A stretch of 64,000 bases of DNA from Caenorhabditis elegans (taxonomy: Eukaryota; Nematoda; Chromadorea; Rhabditida; Rhabditidae): positions 1,736,001 through 1,800,000 of the forward strand of contig NC_003283.11 of the NCBI RefSeq assembly GCF_000002985.6, read 5' to 3'. The position numbers and the translations under genes are program-made. The notes beneath the pieces are model-generated. The model saw only the letters and a list, made by a program, of their open reading frames with translations, searched no databases and was not told the origin of the DNA. Below, piece by piece: positions 18,238 to 32,800 of this stretch (its first letter is position 1; every line of letters begins with the position of its first letter).

Positions 18238-19689
18238 TCAATTTGGATACACTTCCAAGCTGGAGTTGATGAAAGCTCCGTGTTGAGCAGCGCCAAGTTT
18301 TAAAATGCTTTTCATAATCTTTTCGGTTGCATCGTCAACCTGCAGTAATGTTTTTGTTTTAAAGAAATATTCATTCAAACAAATACCTCTTCCCATCCAT
18401 TTTCTCCCCCCATATCAGTCTTGACCCAACCAGGACACATTGCCGTAACCAAGATGTGGTACTTGGCCAGCTCAACCGAACAAGACTTGGAGAATGAGTT
18501 CAATGCGGATTTGCTCATACGGTAAGCGATCTTCAAATTTCAAAACTCTTATAAAATCTATGAAATCTTACGTACATATATACCAGGTTGTTTGTCATCG
18601 ATATATCCAATGGATGCAGCTCCGGAAGAAATGTTGACGATTGCCGCGCGATCAGTCGAATATTCTTCACCGCCGTTCTTTGCCGACGCTTTCTTGAGCA
18701 ATGGTATAAAGTTCTGGGTCAGGATGGCGGTAGAGACTGAGTTTGTCTCAATTTGTTGACGCATATATGTTCTGCTAATCTGTCCTTCAATCTCGTAGAC
18801 TGAACAAATTGCAGCATTGTTGATAAGAACTGTAAGGCCGTCAGTGCCAACGAGGGTATCAACCTGAAATTGAAAATGTGCATTTTGCACAAGCTTGGAG
18901 TACTGAAATTTGAGACTTCACTTTTTAAACCCAAAATGGTTCAAAACTACCAAATTTCGTGCTGAAACTTTCTGAAAATTTCTTTTAAAAAATTATGGCC
19001 GCTCAAAGTTTTGGAAAAAATGGTCAATTTTTAGCTGAAATCTCAAATTTTTTTGTATTTGTATTTGTATTTATTTACGATTGAAATCGTGATCAAAAAT
19101 GAATAGTATAAGGACATAAATAAGTTATAAATAGTAATTTTAGCAACTTTTCAGTGTCGCAGCACTTAACTTTTTTGTTTTTCCAACCGCAGCAATGCTG
19201 AAAAGTTGCCAAAATTTGAAATTTCAGCTAAAAATTGACCTTTTTCAAAATCTTTCAGCCGCCATAACTTGTTTGAAAGAAATTTCCAGAAAGTCTCATT
19301 ACGAAGTTTGGCAGTTTTGAACCATTTTGGGTCTAAAAAAGCGAAATCTCACACTTCGGTCCTTTGAGTAATAGTTCTATCCACTATTTATCAAATTTTT
19401 CAAACTTGAAAAGCAAACAAAAATCCTCACGTTTTCATACAATTTCTTGATAGAGTCGTCGCAGTCTATCTCCAATGGAAAAATTTGTAGACGCGAATCA
19501 GCAATGCTGTTCAGTTCCTTAAATGTTAGATTTTTAAGCATTATCCTAATTAAGGCATACATCAGCTTTTGATGGATTTCTGCAAGTTGCAATTACAAGT
19601 TGAATGCCTTCATTTTTGAGAAACTGCTTCACAAGCCCAAGGCCGATACCACGATTTGCACCGGTAATTAGAATACTTCTTGGAGCCAT
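18238..19689 (-). CDS. C-factor/sniffer-like short-chain dehydrogenase
   Basis: Five exons (19689-19561, 19517-19431, 18863-18576, 18530-18387, 18339-18238) give 249 aa, the usual size for C-factor-type SDRs. The N-terminus MAPRSILITGANRGIGLGLV holds the TGxxxGIG dinucleotide loop. LINNAA follows beta-4, VNISSGAASI carries the catalytic serine strand, and YRMSKSALNSF carries the YxxxK pair. PGWVKTDMGG is the usual post-catalytic loop. All catalytic residues are present, so it should be an active NAD(P)H-dependent carbonyl reductase, probably cytosolic; the substrate is unknown. Intron 2 holds a palindromic repeat of about 500 bases. From memory a C. elegans homologue lies close to ZK697.8. 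Confidence 0.88.
18868..19375. mobile_element. Palindromic element of the GAGTACTGAAATTTGAGAC family
   Basis: Left arm (AGTACTGAAATTTGAGAC, CCAAAATGGTTCAAAACTACC) and right arm (GTTTTGAACCATTTTGGGTC, TCACACTTCGGTCC) are inverted. The centre contains TTTGTATTTGTATTTATTTAC simple sequence. Related copies at 16.3, 34.6-35.6 and 52.9 kb. Confidence 0.75.
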
Positions 19690-20224
19690 TGGTCGAATGG
19701 AAAATTTTAAAAACACTGTCTAATACAAACTAAATCTCTGTATAAATACTAGACCTCACGACGGAGTTTGTGCTATGTGTACTCTTGATTTTATGTCACA
19801 CTGTTGAAAAACTGGTTTCTCGGTAGAAAGCATGAAAAATCACAGTTTGTGGGAATAAATTTGCTTGAAGCTGAACTTTCAAACTTTTTCAAATTTTCTC
19901 TTTGGATAATAGGTATTAAAAAAATCCAATCCTATTCCATTTGACACTTCAAGTCACAAAAATGGGCATAGTATAGGGACGGAGTTTGTGACACTGAAAG
20001 TGTAAACCAGGGCTGTGCGGAACTGTATTTTACATGATTACCCAACTATTTTCATCCAAAGTTAACATAAACATGTAGAAAAAGGTTTGTTCTATCTGAA
20101 AATCATATAGAGAAGATTAGTGAACATGTACTTGAACTTCAAATGTCACCATATTATTAATGTTCCTAATGGTTATAATTCACAAAACCATATTTCATCA
20201 CTAAACTTTAATTGCATGCAATTC

Positions 20225-20990: not shown

Positions 20991-21114
20991 TGCTTTAAAA
21001 ATTTCTAACTATGCTAGACGCACTTTTTATTGTAATGTTAATGTTTCTAATCCGATTTTCGACTTTTCGACACATTAACAAATTAATGCTTGACTTTTGC
21101 ATTTTTTTTTGTTG

Positions 21115-21172
21115 CTGATAAGCTCCTGGTTTCCTTTCCATTATCATTTGCACCCTTTTTGTCATGTTATCA
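21115..21172 (+). promoter_or_regulatory. Three TGATAA-type GATA sites upstream of lectin gene A
   Basis: CTGATAAG at 21115-21122 and TTATCA at 21141-21146 and 21167-21172, 46-103 bases before the start codon. All three, with their spacing, are conserved upstream of lectin gene B. C. elegans intestinal genes are driven through such sites by ELT-2. Confidence 0.55.
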
Positions 21173-21217
21173 TCAAAAATTATTGTTCACTGAAAACATA
21201 TTTCAGAAACAGAAGCT

Positions 21218-24200
21218 ATGAATTTATTACCTTGTTTATTGATTTTTCTATTATACAAACAAGTTGAGTCAGATGATTGTGCTAATTATATATTAAATTC
21301 AAATGCCGTTTCATTAAATAAAGTGAGTTTTTGAAAGTATTTATCTAATTGAAAAGCACCTAGATTTTTTGTTGATTTTTTTAAATGTAGTTTTAGAAAA
21401 ACTGAAAAATCTAAATACCCAGATTCATAAAATTTACTCAATTTTATTTTTAAAAAATTCATAGAAAAGTTTCTTTAATTATAAAATTTTGTTGATCATA
21501 GGCATACAAACTTTTGAGAAACTTAAATTAAATTGAGTTTTGAAATATCAATCCAAGATTTACACTAGATTAATGGAAAATGCATAGCAGTCCCCAACAC
21601 AGCATTCAGTGGGTCAGCAGCAGCTTCCTGTAGCGATACAGGAAATGGAGTTCAGTTCGTCAAGTTATCAATCGACAGTAAGGAGGAAAATGACTTTGTC
21701 GCAAGTGAGTATTTATTTAATTTTTAAGCTGAATATTGATTTTCAGATGGCTTGAAGGCCATTCCTTATAAGATGGCTTATATAGGTCTTGGTCATTCAG
21801 TTGCGGGATGGGAATGGATGAACGGGGACAGTTCAATTTATAGGAATTGGGGTAAGTTTTTGATACTTGAAAAATTTGTTTTTAAGGTGGAGTAATTATG
21901 AAATTGCTTTAAGACTTGCCTATGGTACCACAATGACCAAATATCATAGTAAAAAATTTGTTTTTAAATTTCTGAATTTGATATGATTTTTTGAAAATTG
22001 AAAATATCTCGAATTGCATCAAATTCCCATTTGAATTACCGCCAATAGTTCGATGTTCGATGGAGCGCGCTTGTCTTATTTTAAATTTTATTCATCATGG
22101 TTTCTAAATATTATATTCCCAATACCAAAAATTTCAGCCCATCCACCAGATGCTCCAACAGCTGAACCAACTACCGAACCATCCACACTTCCACCAGCTG
22201 AACAGAGAAGATCAACTGCCGTAGTTATCGGAATTGACGCTTCATTGTTTTCAACGAATTCGTTGACATTTGCGGTTAGTAAGTTTTGAACTCAGCTTTT
22301 GTTTCCTACCAAAAAAAGCAGCCGACATTTTCTGGGTCATCCATGGTGTCGCTTGCAAGCTTACTCACGTCGGTGGTTATTGCAACCGACATTTTCTGGA
22401 CTTTCAAACGAGTTGAAACTGAGGAATCCTATTTGTCGGCAGCGAAGCTCGTTGGAATCGTAGCAGCCGACGTTTTTTTTTGGGTTTTCAGCTACTTACA
22501 ACTTTAAGCAACTCCTGGCTCGTCGGCCGCTTACAAACAAACAATTTTGATCACCATCTGAAAATTGGACTTTCAGCAAGTCGAGTTCGCCAGATCACTT
22601 TCCGCCTATATTGGTGCTCGCGGGCCAGCAGAATTCGCATTTTTCGCGTATGGTTGTGCCCAGATGTCGCCTTATATGAACCAGTATCCAAACTTTGTGA
22701 GCACATTTGTGGATACTGATACAATGATTCGGAATCTTAATGAGACAATTAATCATGACTGTGTTCGCACCAATCCGCTGGATTTTCGCTCGTGAGTTAG
22801 TCAGTTTTCCTGAGACTTCGTGTGGTCAGAGCTTCCCTTTTTCCGTTCTCTTTTTGAATACGTGGAAACTTAATTTTTAGAAATTCTGACGAGTTACTGA
22901 AAACTTTTAACCGCAAATTTAAGTTTCTACGTATTCCAAACGGCTAACGAGATTAGGAAGCTCCGACTACGCATCTTTTCCAAAACCATACCTCTTTCCA
23001 GAATGTTTCGAGATCAGACCGTCTACTATAATCGATATACCACGTCATACCGGCCATTCAAATCACAATTCTTATCAATGATCTACTTCAGTTCTTCTAC
23101 GTAAGGGATAAGAACTCAAGGATCAAGTAATTCCTGATTTCACAATTTTAAGAGACTCTGATAACATAAAAGCGGCCAGCTCCCTCTACCCAATGGCAGA
23201 CTCGTCAGTTATCACAATTAACATTGGTGATAAGTCCATTGATATTTCGCCTTTATCGATTCCAGTTGGCAAGAATGGGATTCGAGTGAAAACTGCAGAC
23301 GATATTTTGGGTCTCGTCCCGAAAATAGATTCTATGATTTTTGGCACGACGGCTGCAGCGGCTGGTGGCGCGAGCAAGGAATTCAAAGGTTAGGATACAT
23401 CGTTGAAAACATCGTCTTGTGATATTTTAAGCGATTTTCCAGAACCCTCTATCGACGCAACTACCTACACGGATTGTGCGTACATGAACGTGACCGACAA
23501 GCTTTGGTACTCGGACGGGGAATGTACCACGGAACGACAAGTGCTCTGCCAATATGTGCTCCCAACACCACCGACACCGAATCCAACGATTTCATGGCAA
23601 GATCCGTTGGTTTTTTTTTTTTTTGAAATTTAAATTCATGTATTCGTTTTTAAAATGTATTTATATCCACGCAATTTCTACATTTTCCAGATGCTTCTAC
23701 GAAACGACAACTTTTAAATATTTCGAGTCATTACACAATGCCAAATGCTATAGGGTAAGTGGACTCAGTCTCAATGAAGCACATTTGCATAGTCGGCAAG
23801 TTTCAGGTGTCCTCAGAAAAAAAGCAGTTTGTTGATGCTGAAAATCTGTGCTTATCCAAACATCCATTATTCCTGCATACCCCTAAACTGACATCAATTG
23901 AGACAAAAATCGAAGAGGATCAGGTTAGAAGTAAGTCTCGCAAAAGTGCTCCATTGCAAACCTCAATTTTTAGCTTTAATACACACACAACCTCTTGTCA
24001 ATGAGGGAATGTTTTGGTTTGGGTTGAAACGGGACCCCTCAAATTCTTCAAACTGGTATTTCATCAACGGAGACACCTATGACTCCAGTTATCAAAACTG
24101 GCGATCCGGATATCCACGAGATGCTGATGGTTGTGATTGTGTGGCGCTGGTGATAAATGATAATTCATGGGTGAATACTGACTGCAATAAGCAGCTGTAT

Positions 24201-24245
24201 TCGATATGTGCTTTTCAGTTCAACTTTACGGATACAGCTTTTTAA
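21218..24245 (+). CDS. Secreted C-type lectin with nested vWA-like domain, gene A
   Basis: Eleven exons: 21218-21322, 21569-21704, 21747-21851, 22138-22274, 22577-22791, 23002-23100, 23153-23388, 23443-23605, 23691-23754, 23807-23930 and 23974-24245. They close in frame at 551 aa. Order: signal peptide (MNLLPCLLIFLLYKQVES); first half of a lectin domain (INGKCIAV to WEWMNGDSSIYRNW); a Pro/Thr linker; a vWA-like domain (STAVVIGIDASLF, QQVEFARSLSAYIG, FLSMIYFSSST, SSVITINIGD); the second half of the first lectin domain (EPSIDATTYTDCAYMN, YSDGEC, QVLCQY); then a complete second lectin domain ending in WVNTDCNKQLYSICAF. DASLFS does not fit the DxSxS metal site. Probably a secreted, possibly immune-related, lectin. 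Exons 4-7 form a phase 1-1 module. Confidence 0.85.
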
Positions 24246-24560: not shown

Positions 24561-24829
24561 TATGGGAAGAAAAAAAAAAGTTAACAGAATTTTAAAAAAT
24601 TAATGGCCGAGTTTTCTCTATTCTATGTTTGAGGTTGCCCAAAATAGTTTGCATACCCGATTTTTGAGGCAATTTTCCAACTGATGAGTGGCCGAAGTTT
24701 GGCGCGGCCACCTGAAAATAATTGTGAAACAAAATTTGCTTGTTTAGTTGCAATGCTTATATTTTTAATCCGATTTTCAAATTTTTGACGCATTACATAA
24801 AAATTCCTTTTTTTTTCTTTTTCGTGCCG

Positions 24830-24893
24830 CTGATAAGACATTTTTCCTGGTTTCCTTTTCATTATCATTTGCACCCTTTTTGTCATGTTATCA
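24830..24893 (+). promoter_or_regulatory. Three TGATAA-type GATA sites upstream of lectin gene B
   Basis: CTGATAAG at 24830-24837 and TTATCA at 24862-24867 and 24888-24893. The block from here to the ATG is the best-conserved non-coding stretch between the two lectin genes. Confidence 0.55.
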
Positions 24894-24938
24894 TACAAAA
24901 TTATTGTTCAGGGAAAACATATTTCAGAAACAGAAGCT

Positions 24939-27900
24939 ATGAACATATTACTTGTTTACTTGTCTTACTTGTTTATATGTTTTATTTTATTGTTTAAACG
25001 AGTTGATTCAGTGATCTGTACTGATTATATACAAAGTTCGACTGCCGTTTCTTTGGAAGAGGTGAGTTTTTAAATATTTTCTCTGTTTCAGAACATTTTT
25101 TTTTCAATTTGATTTTAGAGAAACTGTAATCACGCGGTTCTGGCTTCCCTCATATTTTTTAAAATGTAAGAGTTTGCCGAACTGGGTCATTACGGCTCGG
25201 CCATATCTGAGGTAGATTTACGGCGCGTTGCGTGTTGCGTCGCGGCTCAGTTTTAGTTGTAAAACTAAATGTATTTGTCCGTGTGGAGTACACGACTTTC
25301 CCACGAGTTTTCCGCCAGGCGATTATCAGTGGAGCGCGAAAAATTCAATGAGAAAGGTCAGAACTCAGTGTGTAATATGTGCAAAAAAGATGTAACCTTG
25401 TATTTTGAATTCAGGTTATTGGTAGCATTACTTGTGTAATATTACATGAACACAATATTCTGAGAATGCGTATTGCACAACATTTTTGACGCGCAAAATA
25501 TCTTGTAGCGAAAACTACAGTAATTCTTTTAATTACTACTGTAGCGCTTGCGTCGATTTACGGGCTCAATTGATAGAATATTAAAATAATGCTAAAAATG
25601 GAATATCGCTGTAACTATTCAAACAGAAATTAATTTCAAAAGTCGAGCCCGTAAATCGACACAAGAGATACAGTAGTAATTAAAAGAACTACTGTAATTT
25701 TCGGTACGAGATATTTTGTGCGTCAAATATATTGTGTAATACGCATTCTCAGAATTTTGTGTTCCCGGAATATACCTTGCTCAAAAATAAACCCCAATGA
25801 GTAAAAACAATTTTTTTAACGGTTAAAATTGTACCAGATTCTTAATATTTATCCACATTAAAAATTAATATCAGATTAATGGAAAATGTCTAGCAGTTAC
25901 CAAGTCAGCGGTGAGTGGGTCAGCAACCTCTTCGTGCAACTCTGTAGGAAAAGGAGCCGGTCTAGGAAAGTTTGTGAAGCTATCAATAGATAATCAGTTG
26001 GAAAATGATTTTGTAGCTGGTGGGAAATTGTTCAGTTCCTTTCATGCCTCTAGACTGGAGAGCTTATTTTCAGATGGCTTAATGGATACGACTTATCAAA
26101 CAGCTTACATCGGTCTAGGCCAGTCAGAAGCTGGATGGGGATGGATGAACGGGGACAGTTCAACGTATAGTAATTGGGGTAAGATTTATTGAAGGATTTG
26201 TTTGAAAGCAGAAAAAATTCCAGCACAACCCCCAGTAACATATCCTCCAACAATCGGTCAAACTACCGTACCATTCAGATCAACACTGCCACCTGCTGAA
26301 CAGAGAAGATCAACTGCAGTGGTTATCGGAATTGATGCTTCAATATTCTCCACAAATGCATTGACATTTGCGGTTAGTGAGTCTTTTGTGTAGGCACAGA
26401 AGCGTTCAAGGCAATAATGTAGGCACACATCGACTGCCTACCAACAGCAGCCGACATTATCTAGGTCTTTTCAACGACGCATACTTTTAAGCTGAGCCAC
26501 GATATGTCGGCTGCGAACTATAGCAGTCGACGTTTTATGGGCTCCCTCGACAACAACCAAATGTGAGGACGCCTCCTTCTCTGGGTTCCCAGTTACTTAC
26601 AGCATAAAGCAACTCCTGACTTGTCGGCCGCTTACAAACGTTTTTTGTACAAACAAACAAATTCTATCTAAAAATGCATCTTGCAGCAAGTCGAGTTCGC
26701 CAGATCTCTATCCACCTATATTGGAGATCGTGGACCCGCCGAATTCGCACTGTTTGCGTATGGTTGCACCCAGGTGTCTCCGTATATATACCAGTATCCA
26801 AATTTTGTGAGCACATTTGTGGATACTGATACAATGATTCGGAATCTTAACGAGACAATTAATCATGACTGCGTTCGCAACAATCCGCTGGATTTTAAAT
26901 CGTAAGTTTTTCAAAATTTTTCATAACAAGTAATTAATTTTAATTTCAGAATGTTCCGTGATCAGTCAGTTTATTATAATCGATATCCCACGTCATACCG
27001 GCCATTTAAATCACAATTCTTATCGATGATCTACTTCAGTTCTTCTACGTAGGGGATAAAAACTCAAGGATCAAGCAATTCCTGATTTCAAATTTTTAAG
27101 GGACTCGGATAATATAAAAGCGGCCAGCTCCCTCTACCCAATAGCTGACTCGTCAGTTATCACAATCAACGTTGGTGATAATTCAATCGATATTTCGCCT
27201 TTATCGATTCCAGTTGGCAAGAATGGGATTCGTGTGAAAACTGCAGACGACATTTTGGGTCTCGTCCCGAAAGTGGATTCAATGATTTTCGGTGCGACAG
27301 TTGCCTCGCCTGGTGGTGCCGCGTGGAAAGCATTTGAAGGTTAGCATAGTGTACAGTGGTTTCTGTTGTAACATAACGATTAAATTGTGAATTCGGAATA
27401 AGCATTTTGCAAGGCTGCGGCGCGGTTTTATGTGTGTCAATTTACTAAAGTAAGTGAATCTGAAACAATAATTTGTGGTTTTTTCACAAAACTATGTAAA
27501 AATTCTTCAAAAACATGAATTTCAAACAAAACCTGTAAAACTGTGTCACGGAGTTCCTTCCTCATTGCATTATTCGCGCTCCATTGACAATCGCCCGCCG
27601 GACAACGCGTGGGAAAGTCGTGTACTCCACGCGGGCAAATGCATTTAGTTTTACAACTAAAATCGAACCGCGACGCGACCCGCAACGCGCCGTAAATCTA
27701 CCCCAGATATGGCCGAGCCAAAATGACCTAGTTCGGCGAACTCTTCCATTTCAATTTATGAGGGAAGCCAGAAATCTGTGTCGATTTACGAAGGACAATG
27801 AATCAACTTTTTGAATGTTAAATTTAAAAAAAGTTAAATAAAAATAAAAAAGGAATGTGAAAAATAGTTCAAAAACAATAATTTTAAACGAAACCTGTAA

Positions 27901-29271
27901 AACTGTGCAAATAGATTAATGCACACTTGTCCACGTGTAGTACAAAGCTCTTCGTAAATCGACAGACAAAAAACCGCGCCGTGGGCTTGCAAAACCTTTG
28001 CTCCGTCTTTCTTTTAATCCGAAACAAATTTGCTGGTTGATCGTTCCGTTTCAACAACGTGGCCGAAAAAAAACAATCGATGGCCGAGTTTTCCAAGAGT
28101 GAAAAATTCGGCCATCTATTTTAAATCTTTTACCGCCACGTAGCAAATACCATCTTGTGATATTTTAAGCGATTTTCCAGAACCCTCTATCGACGCAACT
28201 ACCTACACGGATTGTGCCTACATGAACGTGAGCGACAAGCTTTGGTACTCGGACGGGAATTGTACCAGTACCAAACGACAAGTACTCTGCCAATATGTGC
28301 TCCCGCTGCCTTCAACCCCTGAACCGACATCGAATCCATCAGACCCGTTAGTTTTCAAACTTAGAATTTTCAAGTTTAGAATTTTTTCCTCAAAATTCAA
28401 ATGTTAAAAATTTAACTTTTCTTGCAGATGCTTCTACGACACGACTAATTTCACATATTTCAGTGGTCTGGCCAATACGAAATGCTATCGGGTTTGTGAA
28501 ACACAAAATTCTGAGAATGCGTATTGTACAAAACATTTTACGTGCAAAATATGTTGCACAATACGCATTCTTCTAATATTGTTTTCCTGTAATACTACAC
28601 AAGTACAAATAATCTCAATACAAAGTTTTCTGAAGCTCGTAATTATACGTGTATTCAGCTCGACGAATTGGTGTATTTTGTGCAAACATCACATTTGAAA
28701 CATCACATTTTTTTCCCGCAGCGAAAACTACAGCAATTCTTTAAATGATTACTGTATCGGTAAAAGAATTACTGTAGTTTTCGCTACGAGATATTTTGCG
28801 CGTCAATTATGTTGTGAAGTACGCATTGTGGTCCCGTAGTAGTTCCAATATTCCAGGTCTCCTCAGACAAAAAACAATTCGCTGAAGCTGAAAATCTCTG
28901 CCTATCCGATCATCCATTATTCCTGCATACTCCTAAACTGACATCAATCGAGACAAAGGAAGAGGAGGAGAAAGTGCGGAGTGAGTCGGTGTGCCAACGC
29001 GCTCTATCGTCAATTCCCATTTTCAGCCATAGTACCGCCCGTCAGTGACGGGATGTTCTGGTTCGGGCTAAAACGGGACCCGACCAACTCGTCAAACTGG
29101 TATTTTATCAACGGAGACACCTATGATTCCAGTTATCAAAACTGGCGATCCGGATATCCACGAGATGCTGATGGTTGTGATTGTGTGGCGCTGGTGATTA
29201 ATGATAATTCATGGGTGAATACTGACTGCAATAAGCAGCTGTATTCGATATGTGCTTTTCGGTACAACTAG
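24939..29271 (+). CDS. Secreted C-type lectin with nested vWA-like domain, gene B
   Basis: Tandem paralogue of gene A with the same eleven exons and phases: 24939-25061, 25875-26019, 26074-26178, 26224-26372, 26687-26901, 26950-27048, 27101-27339, 28181-28346, 28428-28491, 28857-28980 and 29027-29271 (557 aa). Signal peptide MNILLVYLSYLFICFILL; lectin domain 1 split after YSNW; vWA-like domain from TAVVIGIDASIF; lectin 1 resumes at EPSIDATTYTDCAYMN; complete lectin domain 2. Intron 2 (26020-26073) is 54 bases without an in-frame stop, so it can be read through. Introns 1, 7 and 9 are enlarged by repeat insertions compared with gene A; intron 7 is 841 versus 54 bases. The last-exon stretch 29096-29256 is nearly identical to gene A. 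Confidence 0.85.
25160..25365 (-). repeat. Dispersed GC-rich repeat B, copy 1
   Basis: Inverted relative to the other copies. Carries GGCTCGGCCATATCTGAGG, TTACGGCGCGTTGCGTGT and TGTATTTGTCCGTGTGGAG. Lies in intron 1 of lectin gene B. Confidence 0.8.
25430..25770. mobile_element. Palindromic element E, copy 1
   Basis: Ends TTCTGAGAATGCGTATTGCA and ATACGCATTCTCAGAATTT are inverted. The arms continue with GCGCAAAATATCTTGTAGCG and GTCGATTTACGGGCTC. In intron 1 of lectin gene B. Confidence 0.85.
27560..27780 (+). repeat. Dispersed GC-rich repeat B, copy 2
   Basis: GCGCTCCATTGACAATCGCC, ACAACGCGTGGGAAAGTCG, CGCAACGCGCCGTAAATCT and ATGAGGGAAGCCAGAA. In intron 7 of lectin gene B. Confidence 0.85.
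27880..28135. repeat. Second insertion in intron 7 of lectin gene B
   Basis: This intron is 54 bases in gene A, so the sequence is foreign. It contains short words seen around repeat B (AAACCTGTAAAACTGTG at both 27531 and 27891) and CGGCCATC. Identity unknown. Confidence 0.5.
28497..28840. mobile_element. Palindromic element E, copy 2 (diverged)
   Basis: AATTCTGAGAATGCGTATTG at the left, and TTTTCGCTACGAGATATTTTG followed by TACGCATTGTGG at the right. In intron 9 of lectin gene B; absent from gene A. Confidence 0.75.
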
Positions 29272-29836: not shown

Positions 29837-32800
29837 CTAAATCCGCGCGTGCATGCCTCCGTTGATACCGATCGTCTCTCCAGATATGTAGCTAGCCTCG
29901 TCGGAAACCAGGAACGCCACCGCCTCGGCACACTCATCCGGATCACCGAATCGGCGTTGTGCAATTTGTGAGAGCCACTTCTGCTTTTCGGATTCGTCGG
30001 AGAAGAGGACTTGCGAGAAGTCGGTTTGAATGATTCCTGTAAAGAAATTTATGTTTTAGTGTGGTTCGAAAAAATCATTGTGATATTATTCAGACGCGAA
30101 AATTTTGCGATTTTTGAGTCGAAATCACGGTAGCCCGGTCTCGACACGATCTTTGAAGAGTACTGTAATTTCAAAAAATCCTGTTTTCGCGGGCTTGTCA
30201 TCGATTTTCACTAGTTTTCTCACGATTCGTTAAAAATTTAAGATTGAAATTTTCTCTTTAATAAATAAATAAATATTTTTTGTAGAAAATTTTTCTGTAA
30301 TTTTTTGCTAGACCAAAAATAAAAGAATCTCAAGTTTTCAACTAATCGTGAGAAAACTAGACAAATCTATGAAAATTCCGTAGTACACTTTAAAGGCGCA
30401 CGCCGTTTTGCATTTCACAAAAATATTTCAATATTACGGGAACACAAAATTCTGAGAATACGTACTGTGCAACATATTTTACGCGCAAAATATCTCGCAG
30501 CGAAAATTACAGTAACTCTTTAAATAAATACTGTAGCGCTTGTGTCGATTTACGGGCTCGATTTTTGAAATAAATTTATTTTCGAATAGTTACAGCTATA
30601 TTCCAGTTTCCTTCGTTTCTTTGTATTATTTTCTCTTTATTTTGCTTAAATGTAATATTCCATCGTAAATCGAGCCCGTAAATCGACACAAGCGCTACAG
30701 TAGTAGTCATTTAAAGGATTACTGTAGTTTTCGCTACGAGATTATTTGCACGTCAAATATTTTGTGCAATACGCATGCTAATAGTCTTGTATTTCCGTAA
30801 TATCTACGTCACCCATCAACGACAACACGTGGTGTCAGCCTGTTTCACTTTGATCTACGAAAAATGCGGGAATTTTTCCCAGAAAAATTGCGACGTCAGC
30901 ACGCGCTCTCTTCTCCCGCATTTTTCGAAGATCAAAGCAAAATGGAACTTTCTGAGTCCACGTGCGTTGGAAAAACAACAGTTTTCACGAAAATTCCGCA
31001 AAAATTCGGATAAATATTTATATTTACCTAGATCTCAGGATTTACGCCTTATGATTTCTGGGTCATTAAGTATGTTATTTATCAGATGGTTTTTTGGCAA
31101 GTCAACATGTTTCAAGTCACATGGCGTTTTTTCCCAAAGATCGCCAAATTTCAACATTTTGATTTTCGATCGCGCCAAATCTTCCGTTTCAAAGTTGAAA
31201 AACAAACGAAAAACATGCGTTTTTTTCAAATTTTTTGAAAATAACCCTCCTCTGGGTACCCGATGCACCGGGATCCCGTGAGTTGGCGTTTGGTTTTTCG
31301 AAGTCAATGTGGGAGAGAAGCAGCGAGAGGTAAATATTGAGAAAATATGTCAAATGTTTGCTAAAACTCAGACGTTAGCCTCGTGGCTTCTGTTTTTTTG
31401 TTGCTCCTGCTACTGCTCTTTCGCAGAGCAAATAGCTCGCACGAGGGGTAAAAATGGGGTCAATCGATCCGAAAATAAGTAGTGGGCAACGCACTTTTCG
31501 GAATGATTTTGGAAAAAAAAAATCGATTTTTCAGGAGCTCCAGCTAGCTTGGGAAATCCCTACACACTATGACAGAAGCAGGCAAAAATCGAAAACCAAT
31601 TAAAATCTGTTCTTTGTCGAATCGAATCAAGATAACAGAAAGAGAGAAAAGATTAAATGATAAAAGATACAGAATGTGATCAGTCAAGGACATTAAAGTT
31701 TGTGTTTTTGCACCCACTGACCCCTCTGGGAATTTGAAGGAATAGCGGCAAATCCGGCAAATTGCCGGTTTGCCGAAAATTTTGATTTTCGGCAAATTTG
31801 CAGTAATTTGCCGGAAATTTTTAGAGGGATTTTTTAAAAGACGGAAACGGAAACAACGAAAAACTGTGCCTTTTCGAAATTTTCATAGAATTTCCTCAAA
31901 ATATATTATTGACATTTGCCGTTTTCCGGCATATGGGCAATTTGCGGATTTGCCGGAAATTTTCAATTCCGGCAATTTGCCGATTTGTAGATTTGCCGGA
32001 AAATCATTTGCCGATTAAAATTAAAATTTTGAAATTTCAAAAAAAAAAGGTGCAAAATCACAATTTGCCGAAAATTTCGCCGTTTTTCCGGCAAATTAGC
32101 AATTTGCCGGAAAATTTCAATTTCGGCAATTCGCCGATTTGCTGGAAATTTTCAATTCCGAAAGTTTATAATTTCGGCAATTTGCCGGTTTGCCGAAGTT
32201 TTCAATTCCGGAAATTTGCCGATTTGCCGGAAATTTTCAATTCCGGCAATTTTTAATTTCCGGCACATTCGGCAATTTGCTGGAAGTTTTCAATACTGGC
32301 AATTTGCCGGAAGCTTTCAATTCCGGCAATTTGCTGATTTGCCAATTTGCCGGAATCGTCGTTTTCCAGGATGCGTACAATTTTGCCGATTAAAATTGAA
32401 ATTCTGGAATTTCCAAAAAAAAAAAGTGCAAATTTGCCGAAAATTAATTTTTTCGGCAGTTGCCATTTTTCAGGCAAATCGGCAGGTAGGCAATTTTCCA
32501 ATGAGCGGGAAATTTTGATTCCGGCAATTTGCTGATTTGTCGATTTGTCAGAAGCTTTCAATTCCGGCAATTTGCAGGTTTGCCCATTTGCCGAAAATTT
32601 AAATTCCGGCAATTTGCCGAGTTTCCGGAAAAAAAATCGTTTGCCGCGCACCCCTCAAACTTTTGTAGATCAACTGCATTTTTGTAAAATTTTTGAAAAA
32701 AAAATCAATTTTCCTAGAAAACCTAGGCTACCAAAATTAGCAACTTATTTTTTTGAATTTTTTGATTTTCAATGATTCAAAATTTAATTTTTTCACGAAA

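Follow-up and report, generated by a model that had tools for sequence, protein, structure and literature searches.

A probable vWA-like domain nested inside a C-type lectin domain in two tandem genes of Caenorhabditis elegans

The worm is credited with 283 clec genes in PMC8051790, which also allows that vWA domains may occur in worm lectin proteins, and PMC6054721 gives an example in clec-160, whose product combines a vWA domain with a lectin domain. vWA is likewise among the added domains listed in PMC9085898, and lectin genes of fish are treated in PMC514892. The two genes described here, which we call A and B, resemble clec-160 (PMC6054721) and two further loci of the same genome, L042 and L055, in bringing two domain types together in one protein. 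In L042 and L055, however, the vWA domain precedes the lectin domain and the two stand in series, as judged by eye, whereas in A and B a vWA-like part appears to lie inside the lectin domain itself. The accessible parts of the open-access literature that we searched hold no description of a vWA domain nested inside a lectin domain.

A parallel from outside the lectins is provided by those integrin alpha subunits that carry an alpha-I domain, in which, much as is proposed for A and B, a loop of another fold accommodates a vWA domain. In integrins that other fold is a beta-propeller, the metal site works and the arrangement serves allostery, whereas A and B have a lectin as host, a metal site that looks degenerate and leashes that look long. 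We think it likely that A and B encode two-lectin proteins, the first lectin domain of each carrying a shuffled-in vWA-like domain, and that the full nested protein is what is normally made. If a vWA domain does sit inside the ligand loop, the modelling and annotation of such immune-type lectins would have to change: Pfam misses the insert, and the lectin looks broken. The pair would further offer a clear example of exon shuffling in which the receiving intron lies within a domain and not between two, and would allow a direct test of whether a whole folded domain can be accommodated in a lectin loop.

The window, by which we mean the whole stretch of 64,000 nucleotides that was analysed, runs from position 1736001 to 1800000 of contig C5 and contains both genes on its forward strand. 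Their exon borders were set from GT/AG signals and reading frame, using the DNA sequence alone, and gene A, rebuilt exon by exon in this way, has 11 exons and encodes 551 amino acids, laid out as follows.

21218 to 21322, plus strand: exon 1, a signal-peptide-like protein start with a hydrophobic N-terminus
21569 to 21704, plus strand: exon 2, first part of lectin domain 1, ending in phase 1
21747 to 21851, plus strand: exon 3, lectin domain 1 as far as NW, ending AAT TGG G|gtaagt in phase 1
22138 to 22274, plus strand: exon 4, a Pro/Thr linker and then strand 1 (IDASLF) of the vWA-like insert
22577 to 22791, plus strand: exon 5, vWA-like insert, starting at helix 1 after a phase-0 intron
23002 to 23100, plus strand: exon 6, vWA-like insert, ending in phase 2 just past strand 4
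23153 to 23388, plus strand: exon 7, last third of the vWA-like insert and an Ala/Gly tail, ending in phase 1
23443 to 23605, plus strand: exon 8, starting AACCC, second half of lectin domain 1 (EPSIDATTYTDC...LCQY) and a Pro-rich linker
23691 to 23754, 23807 to 23930 and 23974 to 24245 (including the stop), plus strand: exons 9 to 11, an uninterrupted lectin domain 2

The coordinates and frame that a preliminary description had given for gene A were reproduced, namely an end of exon 3 at 21851 in phase 1, an exon 8 that begins AACCC and a product of 551 amino acids, and so was its sum of 687 nucleotides for exons 4 to 7, which are entered and left in phase 1. Its further claim that exon 3 could be joined directly to exon 8 in frame also holds, the join reading NW-EPSIDATT, and the same join is in frame in the neighbouring gene, whose corresponding features are these.

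24939 to 29271, plus strand: gene B, tandem paralogue directly downstream of gene A, with 11 exons in the nested layout of gene A and 557 amino acids
26224 to 26372, 26687 to 26901, 26950 to 27048 and 27101 to 27339, plus strand: gene B exons 4 to 7, the insert, 702 nucleotides
28181 to 28346, plus strand: gene B exon 8

An insert length divisible by three is by itself only a one-in-three event; gene B repeats the layout with another length and the same phases, and indeed all intron phases are common to the two genes. The genes are 86% identical over the insert and 67% over the signal region together with the joined lectin domain 1; taken by segment, their proteins share 90% of amino acids in the vWA part, 92% in lectin half 2 and 65% in half 1. 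The dN/dS ratio of the vWA part (0.12) is the lowest of eight segments, other values being 0.15 for lectin domain 2, 0.25 for lectin half 1 and 0.33 for half 2, where dS is low (0.14); judged from such ratios, purifying selection is shown to act between A and B.

That exons 2 and 3 on one side and exon 8 on the other are the two halves of a lectin domain had been proposed in the preliminary description, and searches of PDB sequences with phmmer bear this out. Half 1 alone attains a best E-value of 0.11 (2 distinct sequences at E<=1) and half 2 alone one of 1.7 (1 sequence at E<=10). When they are joined with exons 4 to 7 omitted, as residues 1-115 plus 345-399 of gene A, the best E-value becomes 4.1e-7, to the PLA2 receptor, with 36 distinct sequences at E<=1 and REG4 at 6.1e-5. 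This joined form matches C-type lectin-like domains over most of the domain, the alignments shown continue across the junction of exons 3 and 8, and a two-sequence profile gives 2.8e-12. Lectin domain 2 of gene A also aligns with joined domain 1 across the junction, 24 of the 94 columns being identical (pairwise E=4e-6). The PLA2 receptor and REG4, with which the joined halves of A align, have ordinary C-type lectin-like domains with no domain in the long loop, whereas A and B would carry one there, and the calcium motifs EPN and WND are kept only in part, as EPS and WYSD. Neither EPN/QPD nor WND as such is found in domain 1 of gene A; calcium-dependent sugar binding needs these motifs, and the C-type lectin fold does not. 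The conserved cysteines of two core disulfides are all present in the joined domain 1 of gene A, at residues 56, 356, 372 and 380, with the insert lying between 56 and 380, and we take it that Cys56 and Cys380 form the canonical long disulfide and that 356 pairs with 372. The reading of exons 2-3 and exon 8 as halves of one lectin domain, with a separate segment nested inside it, is thus well supported by sequence comparison.

The break in lectin domain 1 falls where the long loop begins, after the NW that follows the second strand and ahead of the EPS...DC segment, and introns at this place recur in the genome. Eight lectin loci were selected because their profile match stopped near the break site, and six of these eight (L066, L067, L068, L071, L072 and L073) have a phase-1 intron within a few codons of it; in L069 and L070 no such intron was seen there. 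Donor and acceptor could both be read in five of the six, L072 showing the donor only, and in those five the intron lies in the codon preceding an E/Q/Y-P motif. In A and B it is the split codon itself that is followed by P, so that, measured against the E/Q-P motif, their junction intron is displaced by one codon from where it usually lies. The intron that L066 has at the long-loop site, about 490 bases long, showed no insert, and neither the domain of L030 nor the second one of L024 is interrupted in the NW region. The best reading of these gene structures, and the most likely one, is that exon shuffling brought the insert into a phase-1 intron as a 1-1 module. Whenever such a module enters an intron of phase 1, the outer exons, here 3 and 8, can still be joined in frame, and the intact frame of that join, being predicted by exon shuffling, is therefore no evidence for alternative splicing. 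A bolder extension, to which we give very little chance, is that the phase-1 intron found where the long loop starts serves as a landing site for whole domains and that the worm still chooses by splicing whether to display the vWA domain; were the landing-site reading true, A and B would be lectins whose ligand loop is a second recognition domain.

What the insert itself is proves harder to say. The preliminary description had called it vWA-like, and in support of this we can add intron positions and phases and a weak collinear profile match, but standard searches do not recognise it: the insert has no match to Pfam VWA (PF00092) at E<=10, phmmer and profile searches of PDB gave no convincing match and none to a vWA domain, and the inserts of A and B are absent from the 58 matches listed in a Pfam VWA search of the whole genome. 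When the insert of A and B was compared by hhalign with 15 vWA pieces of the genome, 125 columns aligned collinearly with a score of 20.5, a probability of 2.2% and P=0.022; among 30 shuffles of the A insert, run as single sequences, the best six by probability reached at most 19.2. In a local hmmsearch the insert scored about 4.5 bits, over a short stretch close to strand 5. These profile matches are weak, and a vWA origin is better supported by gene structure. The introns of the insert lie at the start of helix 1 (phase 0), just past strand 4 (phase 2) and at its end (phase 1), as they do in vWA domains of this genome: a phase-0 acceptor at helix 1 is found in 9 of 10 other vWA loci (in L048 the border is elsewhere), a phase-2 donor after strand 4 in 10 of 11 (L037 has phase 0), and phase 1 at the vWA end in three of five (L042, L051 and L053, with phase 0 in L055 and phase 2 in L061). 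Since the comparison loci were chosen for a match meeting an exon border and the sites were placed by eye, these counts express the recurrence of positions and not their frequency. Some intron phases are thus shared with the vWA loci of the genome at corresponding sites, and the insert is probably a vWA-derived or vWA-like domain. Its metal-ion site would be incomplete in gene A; the usual vWA site is made up of DxSxS, T and D, and the insert has DASLF at 149 and, where TDG is usual, the SSS of FSSST at 262.

These observations have to be set against other ways of explaining the locus. It could be argued that there is no single lectin domain 1 at all, and that an N-terminal remnant is followed by a separate Cys-rich exon 8, or that the gene model joins parts of different genes; each half is indeed weak on its own, and Pfam Lectin_C gives no report for joined domain 1 by itself in either gene, its three stretches on the full-length protein having domain 2 as the best. 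We find this scarcely probable, given an E-value of 4e-7 for the joined form with alignments that run through the junction, phases that agree in two paralogues, and cysteines on either side of the insert that would be expected to pair. A more serious challenge, which we nonetheless regard as unlikely, concerns the insert, which might be a truly nested domain and yet only look like a vWA domain, being a new domain or an unrelated alpha/beta one. The silence of Pfam VWA and of PDB, the low profile score and the departures from the usual metal-site motifs (DASLF for DxSxS, SSS for TDG) are all what this would lead one to expect, and it is the fit of intron positions and phases to the other vWA loci, together with collinearity over 125 columns, that tells against it.

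The remaining alternative, which is that of the preliminary description, supposes that exons 4 to 7 are a regulated cassette, so that the worm would make a plain two-lectin protein, with exon 3 spliced to exon 8, alongside the nested one. In A as in B this join keeps the frame, and a recognisable lectin domain results; but an in-frame join is what any 1-1 module leaves possible in a phase-1 intron, and the skipping would have to take in four exons at once. Splice sites were scored with a small leave-one-out matrix built on the 20 introns that A and B have together, in which donors range from 4.2 to 11.3 and acceptors from -2.2 to 10.7. Within these ranges neither the exon 3 donor (10.8 in A, 7.6 in B) nor the exon 4 acceptor (9.7 and 9.8) is weak, and the exon 8 acceptor scores 10.7 in both genes. 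Lower scores, which would suit a cassette, come from the intron 6 donor (6.1 in A, 4.3 in B) and acceptor (6.4 and 5.1) and the intron 7 donor (7.7 and 5.4), so that by this matrix the sites entering the insert are good and some inside it or at its end weaker. The lengths of the flanking introns are not kept either, intron 3 having 286 nucleotides in A and just 45 in B, and intron 7 having 54 in A and 841 in B. It is suggestive, and only suggestive, that a part frequently omitted would not be expected to be as well kept as the vWA part (dN/dS 0.12). We therefore give the cassette little chance; a constitutive nested domain fits best, and a splice switch seems unlikely on present evidence.

If the nested and constitutive reading is right, A and B would encode proteins of secreted type with two C-type lectin-like domains each, and exons 4 to 7 would be a phase 1-1 module which entered a phase-1 intron by shuffling and was later duplicated along with the gene. 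The normal product would be the full nested protein, in which the lectin halves are predicted to fold together, clamped in A by the long disulfide Cys56-Cys380, with the vWA-like domain placed where the long loop of the first lectin domain begins. It would be held there on a Pro/Thr leash of about 26 residues and an Ala/Gly leash of about 11 (borders placed by eye), and so be displayed where sugar ligands normally bind, which would make for a two-surface recognition or effector protein. The product is probably made in the gut, to judge by a block upstream of the two genes.

21058 to 21217, plus strand: upstream block of gene A, alike in both genes
24779 to 24938, plus strand: upstream block of gene B, alike in both genes

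These blocks hold TGATAA/TTATCA at -102 (A) or -108 (B), -77 and -51, that is, three sites in about 110 bases, compared with a density of 1.17 per kb across the window, and we take them to be gut GATA-factor sites. TTTCAG stands 11 bases before the ATG in both genes and is presumably a possible trans-splice site, and CTGATAAG occurs at 21115 and 24830, with five copies in the window against 1.49 expected.

Across the genome (100,286,401 bases in 7 contigs), searches with DNA, with the insert protein and with the insert-free protein gave no close relatives beyond A and B. The DNA search returned two matches, A and B themselves; the insert protein, in a six-frame search, returned nine, eight of them within A and B; and the insert-free protein returned 23, the best outside the pair being L024 (1.1e-7), over lectin domain 2. 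No credible relative of the insert outside A and B emerged from single-sequence genome search, the ninth match, L011 on contig C2 (E=0.0031, 25% identity), being judged a chance one with four stops inside and no lectin part around it. L074, where the lectin match is split at profile positions 48/50, was considered as a second nested gene and set aside, as by eye it has lectin pieces and a Cys-rich continuation with no vWA-like part. Given that the search was a six-frame one, diverged nested genes may still remain among the clec genes.

A few smaller observations concern the pair and its surroundings. The lectin part of exon 8 (23443-23556 in A, 28181-28297 in B) has an A-B dS of 0.14, against 0.43-0.80 in half 1, the vWA part and lectin domain 2, and the intron bases directly 5' of exon 8 also look alike in the two genes; gene conversion of this part is possible. 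Introns 1 and 7 of gene B hold a 199-nucleotide inverted repeat (25159-25357 and 27556-27754, 88% complementary) that flanks exons 2 to 7. Intronic inverted-repeat pairs can favour circular RNA. As an aid to skipping exons 4 to 7 the repeat was rejected, because it encloses exons 2 to 7 and a join of exon 1 to exon 8 would shift the frame. Related palindromic repeats occur in introns 1 and 9 of gene B (25439-25773 and 28500-28827), and the lectin pair is flanked on either side by minus-strand ORFs at 19546-19719 and 29837-30055, which we take to be pieces of short-chain dehydrogenases.
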